The notes beneath the pieces were generated by a model. It searched no databases and was not told where the DNA came from. It saw only the letters and a program-made list of their open reading frames with translations. From Candidatus Pacearchaeota archaeon (GTDB lineage: Archaea; Nanobdellota; Nanobdellia; Pacearchaeales; GW2011-AR1): a stretch of 32,036 nt of DNA. Below are positions 3,272-31,803 of this stretch, one piece after another. Each line of letters starts with the position of its first letter. Position 1 is the first letter of the stretch. The stretch covers positions 1 to 32,036 of the forward strand of contig VGKS01000009.1 in assembly GCA_016866935.1 (NCBI GenBank), given 5' to 3'. Position numbers and translations under genes: made by a program.

Positions 3272-3667
3272 TTAATTATTTTTATTGAATTTATTTACGA
3301 AGGTAAGCATAGTAGGCTCAATACTATTCTTGAAATGATTTGAATACCATTCTTCAAAAGAATTTCGGTCTTTCCAGTTACCATTTTTATACATTTTTTC
3401 TTTTCCATGATAGATCTTATGTTCCTCCTTACCAACTACAACTAGATTTTTTATCCTATTATCTTGATGATTATGATTAATATGATGAACTACTAGCTGT
3501 TTGGTAGAGCAACCTCTTTTAAATGCCTCTTCATCAATCTTCCCTAGTGTGTCCATTAACCATCTATGAAAACTTAAATATTTTTTTCCAATTTTTTTTA
3601 CCAAATAACAATTAAAATCATCATATTCTACATCCATTTCAGAGGAACTAAATTCTTCTTTAAACAT
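3272..3667 (-). CDS. HNH endonuclease
   Basis: A 131-residue protein whose middle is an HNH motif: HHINHNHQDNRIKNL at 61-75, with the metal and catalytic His pair at 61-62 and DN at 69-70, then EHKIYHG at 82-88 supplying the last histidines. HNH enzymes make nicks or double-strand breaks in DNA. Upstream, LSFHRWLMDTLGKI (31-44) resembles the AP2-like segment found before some phage HNH domains. The start is ATG at 3667 because GGAAGG lies 7 nt before it; the frame stays open to 3706. It overlaps the 3' end of the preceding gene by 40 nt, so the pair is co-translated. It may be a restriction enzyme or a mobile nuclease. Confidence 0.82.
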   Translation of the reverse strand: MFKEEFSSSEMDVEYDDFNCYLVKKIGKKYLSFHRWLMDTLGKIDEEAFKRGCSTKQLVVHHINHNHQDNRIKNLVVVGKEEHKIYHGKEKMYKNGNWKDRNSFEEWYSNHFKNSIEPTMLTFVNKFNKNN

Positions 3668-4017
3668 CTTATATCCTTCCTTGCAAAATATGAAATTAAT
3701 ACCCAAGTATTCTTATGAATTTCGTTAGGACTTTTAAAATCCAATATTTTAATAGGAGATAATTTCTTACTTGGAAAGTCAGAAATAACACTTTGAATTG
3801 GCTTGTAAGAATTGGATTCTTCTCTAATAATAAAAGCTTTATTTTTTTCATTTTCTTTGGGCGTAGAATATTCAGTTTTTGCAAACTCAATATTTTGTAA
3901 ATTTTCTGCGTCTGATTTAGAAGTTATCTTTTTTCTGTTTAACTTAATCGATATCTTTTTTTCTTTTGATTTATCTTTTCTAAAAATTGCTAAAAATAAT
4001 CTTTTTAAAAAATTCAT
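3628..4017 (-). CDS. Hypothetical protein with hydrophobic N-terminus, partner of the HNH gene
   Basis: A 129-residue protein of unknown family. It opens with an amphipathic or membrane-anchoring segment (MNFLKRLFLAIFRKDKSKEKK), followed by a Lys/Ser/Asn-rich, probably disordered stretch to about residue 75 and a short hydrophobic C-terminus (WVLISYF, then basic residues). The start is ATG at 4017: GGGAG lies 8 nt upstream, and this A is also the last base of the TAA that ends a 17-codon leader ORF (TAATG). The reading frame continues upstream to a TTG at 4032, but that codon directly precedes the Shine-Dalgarno GGGAG. The 3' end overlaps the HNH gene. Confidence 0.55.
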   Translation of the reverse strand: MNFLKRLFLAIFRKDKSKEKKISIKLNRKKITSKSDAENLQNIEFAKTEYSTPKENEKNKAFIIREESNSYKPIQSVISDFPSKKLSPIKILDFKSPNEIHKNTWVLISYFARKDIRCLKKNLVPLKWM

Positions 4018-22131: not shown

Positions 22132-22215
22132 GCGGGGATGCCAGAGTGGTCAAATGGGACACGTTAAGGCCGTGTTAGCTTAGTGCTTTCCTAGGTTCGA
22201 ATCCTAGTTCCCGCA
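22132..22215 (+). tRNA. tRNA-Leu, anticodon read as AAG
   Basis: A class II tRNA. Acceptor GCGGGGA pairs with TTCCCGC (one G-U). The D arm CCA/TGG has GG and A14; the anticodon stem ACACG/CGTGT is perfect around loop TTAAGGC; a 15-nt variable arm with AGC/GCT follows; the T stem CTAGG/CCTAG surrounds TTCGAAT. Discriminator is A, typical of Leu; CCA is not encoded. With this pairing the anticodon is AAG, which is unusual because archaea normally avoid A34. Its last 16 bases recur downstream in an 87-bp repeat array. Confidence 0.88.
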
Positions 22216-22390
22216 TTTTTATTAATAGGATTCGAAGTCCTCACAAACTGATGTTCGTGGGAACTCCAATTCTTACGAATTGTAGTAATCCTAGTTCCCG
22301 CATTTTTATTAATAGGATTCGAAGTCCTCACAAACTGATGTTCGTGGGAACTCCAATTCTTACGAATTGTAGTAATCCTAGTTCCCGCAT
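22200..22390 (+). repeat. 87-bp tandem repeat array sharing the tRNA-Leu 3' end
   Basis: Two identical 87-bp units (22200-22286 and 22287-22373) plus a 17-bp partial third (22374-22390). Each begins with AATCCTAGTTCCCGCAT, the tRNA 3' end plus one base. The 70 bp between cores holds TAGGATTCGAA, an inverted copy of the T loop, then GTGGGAACT and the hairpin CAATTCttacGAATTG, which could pair with the next AGTTCCCGC. Core, spacer, core, spacer, core looks like repeated attachment-site copies or a tandem duplication. No ORF is seen here. Confidence 0.92.
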
Positions 22391-30828: not shown

Positions 30829-31803
30829 ATGATAAATACAAAATTCAAAAAAGGACAAATTCCACATAATAAAATAAATTTTAAAGAAGAAGATATTGAA
30901 AAAATTCTAAATTTATATTTTAATTCTAAATATTCTCATTCAGAAATTGCTAGGATTTATTCGATTAACGCCTCAACAATAGGTGATTTATTAAAGAGAC
31001 TGGGAAAAAAATCCAGGAAATCTGGAAAGCGTTTAGGAGTAGCAAAAAAGTTGACTAGAAAAGAATTAGAAGAGCTATATATTAATCAAAAGAATTCTGT
31101 AAATAAAATATCTTCAAAGCTTGGAGTCTCAAAAGATACTATTAAGCATTGGATAATTTCTTATAATTTACATTATCGTGGAATTGGTAATAGGAAGTTA
31201 CCGAAACTTTTTCAGAGACCTTCAAAAGAAGAACTAGAAAGATTACATCACATTGATAAAAATTCAAAAAATAATATCGCTTTAAAGTTTGGGGTTTCTA
31301 AGACAACTATTTCTAGATGGTTCAAAGAATATGAAATTACTCCAAAACTTTACACCAAACATTCAAATATAGAGTTAATAATGAAAAGTTTGCTGGAAAA
31401 TAATAATTTGATAGAAGGTCTAAAAGAGCAATATGTGATTAAACTTTCTAAAGGATATACCAGAGCAGATTTTGCCTTTCCAAATCAAAAAATAGCAATC
31501 TATTGCGATGGAGATTATTGGCATGGAAATTGGCATTCAATTGGAAAAAATAAAGATTTAATTAAAGAAGGTCCAAGAAAAAAACACATTTTTGAAAAAA
31601 CAGTAGTTAAAGATGGAAGAATTCATTTCGAGTTAATGAGTTTGGGATGGGTTACACTTAGGTTTACTGAACAGGATATTAAAAATAACGGTTCAAGTAT
31701 TATGGAAATAATAAAAAAGAATCTCTTTGACAAAGAATTCATAAAAAATAGAAAATTAGAAATAACTAAAGCATTATATATTAGGAAGAAGCAGGGACTC
31801 TAA
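30829..31803 (+). CDS. Triple helix-turn-helix protein with Vsr/DUF559-like endonuclease domain
   Basis: A 324-residue protein. Residues about 18-60, 75-110 and 135-170 are three similar HTH units (SEIARIYSINASTIGDLLKR, VNKISSKLGVSKDTIKHWI, NNIALKFGVSKTTISRWFKE). The C-terminal domain has YTRADFAFPNQKIAIYCDGD followed by YWHG, then LMSLGWVTLRFTEQDI, the Vsr/DUF559 layout within the PD-(D/E)XK fold, also found in EDxHD homing endonucleases. So it is likely a site-specific DNA nuclease, mobile or defensive. ATG at 30829 is about 22 nt after TTATTTAATA, so leaderless. A tRNA-like 3' end lies 117 bp downstream. Confidence 0.82.
   Translation: MINTKFKKGQIPHNKINFKEEDIEKILNLYFNSKYSHSEIARIYSINASTIGDLLKRLGKKSRKSGKRLGVAKKLTRKELEELYINQKNSVNKISSKLGVSKDTIKHWIISYNLHYRGIGNRKLPKLFQRPSKEELERLHHIDKNSKNNIALKFGVSKTTISRWFKEYEITPKLYTKHSNIELIMKSLLENNNLIEGLKEQYVIKLSKGYTRADFAFPNQKIAIYCDGDYWHGNWHSIGKNKDLIKEGPRKKHIFEKTVVKDGRIHFELMSLGWVTLRFTEQDIKNNGSSIMEIIKKNLFDKEFIKNRKLEITKALYIRKKQGL

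Follow-up and report, generated by a model that had tools for sequence, protein, structure and literature searches.

tRNA genes are classic landing sites of mobile DNA, and the known elements that use them are mostly kilobases long, each usually fitting one or a few tRNAs. Archaeal integrases favor the 3′ ends of tRNA genes, and the T stem-loop offers a dyad-symmetric target (PMC8371274). Tyrosine recombinases use targets in the T arm and 3′ end, with a 7-nucleotide (nt) overlap in the T loop flanked by dyad arms, and the tRNA is restored (PMC8371274). Here, we describe an array of short repeats behind a tRNA-Leu gene of an archaeon. The array is a member of a hitherto unnamed family, the units of which measure ∼65 to 120 bp and stand behind many tRNA genes, class-wide in tiny-genome archaea. 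It resembles the tRNA elements of tyrosine recombinases in its target (the T arm and 3′ end), in the restoration of the tRNA by a copy of its 3′ end and in identity across the T loop. Unlike those elements, the unit has neither an integrase nor cargo within its ∼65 to 120 bp. An inverted, host-matched copy of the T arm and a conserved hairpin block are further parts of the unit, which often stands in tandem, and one family sits on many different tRNAs.

Three other kinds of described sequences invite comparison. Somewhat like integron attC sites, the units may be seen as imperfect hairpins with conserved unpaired bases, stand in tandem behind a fixed site and could, by analogy, act as folded single strands. 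They differ in that the attC motifs (RYYYAAC … GTTRRRY) were found in 0 of 26 distinct units, in the absence of a gene from the unit, in the use of the tRNA T arm as a target and in a matched strand that tracks the tRNA; the likeness to attC is one of analogy, not of membership. REP/REPIN sequences and hairpin MITEs are likewise short, palindromic, noncoding, dispersed and moved in trans if at all, but the units described here are tied to tRNA T arms in the genus, have a re-copied end at each junction and lack a co-occurring Y1 transposase. Casposon target sites and CRISPR-like arrays share the repeat-spacer look. In our array, however, the spacers are 100% identical, the inverted ends of casposons are lacking, and Cas1 was found in 1 of 15 block-bearing genomes and in none of the genus; the initial annotation of the locus had set CRISPR aside on the identity of the spacers, and we concur.

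RESULTS

Anatomy of the array

The window, i.e., the whole stretch of DNA that was analyzed, is a 32,036-bp contig from an archaeal genome of 0.69 Mb in 43 contigs, and it carries the archaeal markers eIF2-gamma, ribosomal protein S6e and an IF-2/aIF5B-type GTPase. Behind the gene for tRNA-Leu(AAG), the 17-bp core AATCCTAGTTCCCGCAT (tRNA nt 58 to 74) is present three times, with the cores split by two identical spacers of 70 bp each (Table 1). The resulting 87-bp periods, 22200 to 22286 and 22287 to 22373, show 100% identity; the initial annotation had described this layout exactly. Each spacer begins with an AT-rich linker, continues with TAGGATTCGAA, which is a perfect 11-bp inverted copy of tRNA nt 54 to 64, and ends in two hairpins (P2 and P3). 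The inverted T-loop piece that had been noticed earlier is therefore real, and it is the key feature of the unit. Folding prediction also recovered the proposed pairing of the spacer with the next core around the CAATTCttacGAATTG hairpin, CAATTCttacGAATTG being the top of hairpin P3, and the predicted structure of the array is nonrandom (z = −3.5). An inverted piece of the acceptor had been read into the spacer as well. While GTGGGAACT does resemble an inverted acceptor end at this array, it does so only here: the sequence is the foot of hairpin P2, the varying pairs of which read GTGGCAACT, GTGGTAACT or GTGGGAACT in other units and do not track the acceptor stem. The likeness is incidental.

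The host tRNA-Leu has an A at position 34 (anticodon AAG), as do those at L095 (genome G001) and L110 (genome G040); A34 tRNAs are uncommon in archaea. The other Leu tRNAs detected in the source genome have the anticodons TAG, TAA and CAA, and GAG was not found there. The window also contains two possible mobile-element genes, one for an HNH_3 endonuclease (3272 to 3706, minus strand) and one with helix-turn-helix repeats and a weak Vsr endonuclease match (30829 to 31803, plus strand).

Table 1. Coordinates of the array and its host tRNA gene in the window
Feature	Positions	Strand	Remarks
Host gene, tRNA-Leu with anticodon AAG	22132–22215	+	ARAGORN; Rfam RF00005, 48.5 bits
Core 1, tRNA nt 58–73 plus one base	22200–22216	+	3′ end of the intact tRNA
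Unit 1, inverted copy of tRNA nt 54–64 (TAGGATTCGAA)	22226–22236	+	First 7 nt form the 5′ strand of P1
Unit 1, hairpin P2	22239–22261	+	Bulged T at 22241; internal A·C mismatch; bulged/joining A at 22262
Unit 1, hairpin P3	22263–22286	+	ACTCCAATTC-TTAC-GAATTGTAGT
Core 2, re-copied tRNA 3′ end	22287–22303	+	First 7 nt form the 3′ strand of unit 1 P1
Match to model R1, unit 1	22226–22293		E = 2.1e-19
Unit 2, inverted copy of tRNA nt 54–64	22313–22323	+	
Unit 2, hairpin P2	22326–22348	+	Same sequence as in unit 1
Unit 2, hairpin P3	22350–22373	+	Same sequence as in unit 1
Core 3, re-copied tRNA 3′ end	22374–22390	+	R1 match at 22313–22380

The units share a three-way junction

The common fold of the units is a three-way junction formed by stem P1 and the hairpins P2 and P3. 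P1 is a 7-bp stem in which the spacer strand pairs with the start of the next tRNA-end copy (its first 7 nt). P2 has GC/GC, AC/GT or CC/GG as foot pairs and a 1×1 mismatch; one of its sides has a bulged T and the opposite side a joining A. P3 has the form ACTTCAACTC-loop-GAGATTGAAGT. The same junction was recovered when single units of the source genome were folded freely. We aligned 12 full units from 12 tRNA loci and found 91.7% of the cells to be paired, with 15 of the 25 pairs changed on both sides; sliding the alignment as a control brought pairing down to 29 to 44%. In a larger alignment of 26 distinct units, which had been fitted to the model and hence leans toward it, 91.9% of the cells were standard pairs, 20 pairs had two-sided changes, and two-sided cells outnumbered one-sided cells by 123 to 10 (as high in 0 of 500 shuffles). 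The bulged T was present in 22 and the bulged A in 23 of these units. At tRNA-Arg(CCT), P1 changes along with the tRNA between two congeners (TAGG/CCTA versus GCAGG/CCTGC). It had been suggested that the array, if transcribed with the tRNA, would yield a series of acceptor-like hairpins. The analysis does not support this: what the three-way junction occupies is T-stem nt 58 to 64, not an acceptor stem.

On this strand, G·U pairs made up 2.2% of P2 and 1.3% of P3, compared with 6.9% of the tRNA acceptor stems and 4.1% of the T stems in the same genomes. As proof of selection at the DNA level, the low G·U content is only suggestive, because A·C cells, which would be G·U on the other strand, amount to ∼4% and are about as frequent as G·U in T stems. 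A scan of the window with Rfam 15 gave no family above its gathering score, and by E value only tRNA was significant. Two candidate identities were rejected. A tRNA intron with a bulge-helix-bulge motif would need the 3′ exon for P1, and hand inspection showed the T-loop spacing to be without 3-nt bulges. A hammerhead-like CUGAUG/CGAA motif is not kept in other units, where the P2 loop is TTCG or AAA.

Each unit matches its own host tRNA

In the 36 tRNA/unit pairs that we compared, the unit opens with an 11-nt reverse complement of nt 54 to 64 of its own tRNA. Across the T loop (nt 54 to 60), the match was seen in 32 to 36 of the 36 units, the variable nt 57 and 59 included. The informative positions are nt 57, 59, 63 and 64, because these vary between tRNAs. 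Nucleotide 59 matched in 36/36 pairs and nt 57 in 35/36, and the proportions dropped to 0.53 and 0.60, respectively, when units were swapped between tRNAs. The corresponding values were 0.81 (0.30 swapped) for nt 63 and 0.61 (0.31 swapped) for nt 64, and beyond the 11-nt stretch the match faded to 0.47 at nt 53 and 0.06 at nt 52. Pairing with the next core in P1 can account for the match at nt 58 to 64. This explanation does not extend to nt 57, as the core starts at nt 58 and nt 57 therefore lies outside P1. The match at nt 57 thus means that the inverted stretch fits the whole 7-nt T loop plus one strand of the T stem.

Re-copied tRNA ends and copy number

To count re-copied 3′ ends, we used the 37 tRNA genes detected in the source genome (G000) and the 27 detected in congener G001, and we required the last 10 nt of the tRNA to recur at most 450 bp downstream with no more than one mismatch. 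Such ends were found at 24 of the 64 genes, against 0.38% in a chance control that compared tRNA ends with the flanks of other tRNAs. A third congener had them at 4 of 19 tRNAs, and a nearly complete relative with no detected block had them at 0 of 16. An exact inverted 7-mer of nt 58 to 64 lay within 120 nt at 9 of the 24 re-copied ends but at only 1 of the 40 tRNAs without one, so that the inverted copy and the re-copied end come as one package. The direct repeats vary in length (13 to 21 nt) and, depending on orientation, in their start (nt 58 to 62). Point changes occur in some of the re-copied ends, so these copies are under loose constraint.

Six arrays contain exactly two identical units of 81 to 92 bp each, and one further array has two 121-bp units that are 98% identical. 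The latter lies downstream of tRNA-Ile(GAT) (L050; G000:C17:11072) and has extra hairpins in the linker. In genome G139, the tRNA-Gln(TTG) array is broken by two contig ends (C1 and C57), both of which carry one and the same unit. Since at least three such units repeat past the usual k-mer lengths, the number of two units per array may in part be an assembly ceiling. The last or distal unit is often decayed or truncated, with truncated ends in the Phe, Leu-CAA, Pro, Glu and Gln arrays. The initial annotation had held that a copy number fixed at one in relatives would speak for simple local duplication; we observed zero, one and two units, in addition to arrays broken at contig ends.

Two tRNA-Gln(CTG) genes of congener G001 (L027:1449–2540), 937 bp apart, have identical units. 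The acceptor stem of the second gene is mismatched, and this copy may be a pseudogene. Between the pair lies a host gene, whose orthologue in the source genome stands next to the empty tRNA-Gln. A second repeat family (CTCGGAGACTCGCTGCGGAGTA / TTGCTCGA..CTCCTCATG) also occurs behind tRNA genes of the genus, at L040:1720–1765, L049 (3′ of tRNA-Gln), L085 (3′ of tRNA-His) and L092, and is sometimes found inside the arrays of re-copied ends.

Distribution across relatives

A search for the spacer elsewhere, which had been proposed as a check, showed that the exact spacer is unique and that homologous units are numerous. With the array as the query, a second unit was found in the source genome directly behind tRNA-Phe. 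It is 81% identical to the first, with the 3′ end of tRNA-Phe re-copied and the inverted T arm of Phe in place of that of Leu. One congener has a unit behind tRNA-Leu(CAA). An exact-like pattern searched across the family was restricted to this genus, and a looser pattern and covariance models were needed for the others. Among 200 genomes of the order, 13 carried the loose pattern (T arm, inverted copy and then GAAGT), at 21 places in total, and almost all of these followed Ser, Leu, Gln, Cys or Phe tRNA genes. Of 180 genomes of the order, 31 gave block matches to covariance model R1. The source genome has the block at 14 places, all of them behind tRNA genes except C5:11196–11246, and congener G001 has it at 18. 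The block was further present in 21 of 371 genomes of a phylum sample and in 22 of 378 of a class sample. In other families of the class, it mostly lies right behind tRNAs (Leu, Gln, Glu, Trp, Ala and Met), and P1 fits the tRNA in question; with Ser, these make up the tRNA kinds linked to the block class-wide. Some copies in other genera of the same family are located off tRNAs. One block copy (G167, L115:1501–1567) lies in frame within a DNA polymerase B-like gene, the frame of which is unbroken.

Searches of GTDB contigs for the exact core hairpin CACAAACTGATGTTCGTG and of IMG/VR for CACAAACTGAKGTTCGTG returned only chance matches in unrelated sequence, and the pattern of a T arm with its inverted copy gave no match in IMG/VR. 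Among titles and abstracts of the open literature, we found none describing such units.

In genome G053 (L029:700–1700), two decayed units accompany an orphan T arm to which no full tRNA is attached; an opposite-strand reading frame that by eye looks like a LAGLIDADG homing endonuclease precedes it. Another unit (L170; G152:C45:4305–4385) has a tRNA-like 3′ end, GTTCGATTCCTTGCAGGCTC, and no tRNA was detected nearby.

Occupied and empty sites and candidate enzymes

With the same neighbor genes, the Gln-TTG, Gln-CTG, Pro, His and Leu-CAA sites are empty in the source genome and occupied in congener G001. The tRNA-Phe site is occupied in both genomes, with the blocks in opposite orientations. Where the block is inverted (Ile-GAT, Ile-TAT, Phe, Pro and Arg-CCT), it lies within a second T-arm copy, between ∼nt 60/61 and 61/62. 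Blocks resembling one another occupy different tRNAs within a genome and also recur between congeners. At the level of genome comparison, the occupied and empty sites, both orientations and copies elsewhere show mobility. The earlier proposal of serial insertion by a tiny tRNA-targeting element, or of duplication of an attachment site, is well supported by these sites and by the relatives behind many tRNAs.

The unit is noncoding, and no recombinase gene lies within it. Tyrosine recombinases were present in 19 of 20 genomes searched, and those of the source genome lie at C17:3034–3501, C1:47889–48365, C36:2036–2500 and C29:2573–3106; because nearly every relative has one, their presence is uninformative, and none was found to be linked to the unit. 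Y1 transposase was absent from the source genome (88.6% complete) and from five other block-bearing genomes, and it was found in 4 of 10 block-rich versus 5 of 10 block-free genomes, i.e., without co-occurrence. Among the scanned genes neighboring the array were one helicase, one CysRS and one gene without a Pfam family, and no guide-dependent transposase or nuclease.

DISCUSSION

The anatomy of the units, the covariation of their pairs, the matching to the host tRNA, the association with tRNAs and the occupied and empty sites are direct observations. Our preferred reading, to which we assign a probability of roughly one-half, is that the array consists of two tandem copies of a noncoding integrative mini-element that inserts at the tRNA T arm. 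With the block oriented as in this array, insertion would occur between nt 57 and 58 and leave a copy of the tRNA 3′ end (nt 58 to 74) at each junction, so that the tRNA stays intact; core 3 would then be the original tRNA 3′ end, now displaced. The unit would comprise tRNA nt 58 to 74, an AT-rich linker, inverted nt 54 to 64, P2, an A and P3, followed by the next tRNA end. Its inverted copy, with the full 7-nt T loop (as long as a classical tyrosine-recombinase overlap) and one T-stem strand, would pair with the next tRNA-end copy to form P1, allowing one strand to fold as a three-way junction. The attachment site would be this folded or inverted T-arm site, and the tRNA-matched bases could be accounted for if, as we propose, identity with the target T loop is needed. 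We infer recombination by way of a circular or single-stranded intermediate, with the unit moved in trans by a recombinase, which may be a resident Xer-like enzyme or an archaeal integrase. Tandem copies could stem from repeated insertion or from unequal exchange between identical cores. The class-wide linkage to tRNAs, the insertions off tRNAs and the frequent decay or truncation of distal units count in favor of integration. Several observations count against it: no recombinase gene was found in the unit or linked to it, the linker end shows no conservation, the direct repeats differ in length and start, some re-copied ends have point changes, and certain terminal units are cut short in the way expected from slippage.

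The strongest competing explanation treats the units as structured RNA of the tRNA trailer. Co-transcribed with the tRNA, it would fold so that P1 sequesters the redundant end or governs 3′ processing, and selection on the RNA would maintain the re-copied end and the matched strand. Such an RNA would fit the conserved fold with its two-sided changes, the ability of single units to fold on their own, the class-wide linkage to tRNAs, the position of the array downstream of a transcribed gene and the joint change of P1 and tRNA-Arg(CCT) in the two congeners. We nevertheless consider it unlikely, since blocks stand behind tRNAs in both orientations and also off tRNAs, and since they are missing behind most tRNAs and at syntenic orthologues. 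G·U pairs are also rare on this strand (1.3 to 2.2% in P2/P3), although A·C reaches ∼4%. Furthermore, the match at nt 57 would require pairing with the tRNA's own T loop, leaving the tRNA unfolded. A trailer RNA thus accounts for the fold but not for the inverted orientation, the off-tRNA copies or nt 57. Movement is dispensed with altogether if the inverted T-arm copy arose by snap-back, the tRNA end was duplicated by slippage and the hairpins drove the copy number. Slippage is promoted by hairpins, units within one array are usually identical, and the truncated last units listed above would be expected. This purely local origin seems rather improbable to us, as it is weakened by the presence of homologous P2/P3 blocks at distinct tRNAs within a single genome and in separate families of the class: homologous blocks at nonhomologous loci need either movement or parallel origin. 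A further point against it is that the inverted T-arm copy is almost confined to tRNAs with a re-copied end.

The remaining rivals accept movement and differ in its agent. A REP/MITE-like hairpin element that owes its movement to a T-arm-preferring transposase of the IS200/IS605 type (Y1) would suit a small palindromic block that has a conserved bulged T and mismatch and is dispersed in both orientations. The distribution of Y1 described above, including its absence from the source genome, speaks against such an element, which would also leave the re-copied tRNA end and the tRNA-matched strand unexplained, and we regard it as distinctly improbable. Finally, the 11-nt T-arm-complementary strand might serve as the guide of a small structured RNA directing insertion, given that a target-matched strand adjoins conserved hairpins. 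With so short a match and no guide-dependent enzyme identified among the scanned neighbors, this appears very improbable.

The integrative reading is close to the one preferred in the initial annotation, which was mostly right; the finding is larger in that it concerns a class-wide family of tRNA-matched units. We suggest, as a tentative extension, that the units might represent a new kind of cargo-less archaeal mobile DNA with a folded-strand attachment site customized to the host T loop, so that one family could colonize many tRNAs by copying or matching 11 nt. Annotators would do well to bear in mind that a re-copied tRNA end behind an archaeal tRNA may mark the junction of an element, and that arrays of this kind may be cut down to two units in short-read assemblies. 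A unit of ∼65 to 120 bp fits many kinds of tRNA, and its matched strand tracks the host tRNA, including a T-loop base outside the unit's own stem. If our reading is true, the family would provide a minimal model for the change of target by a site-specific element, and the units could be used as markers of unseen recombination in uncultured archaea.
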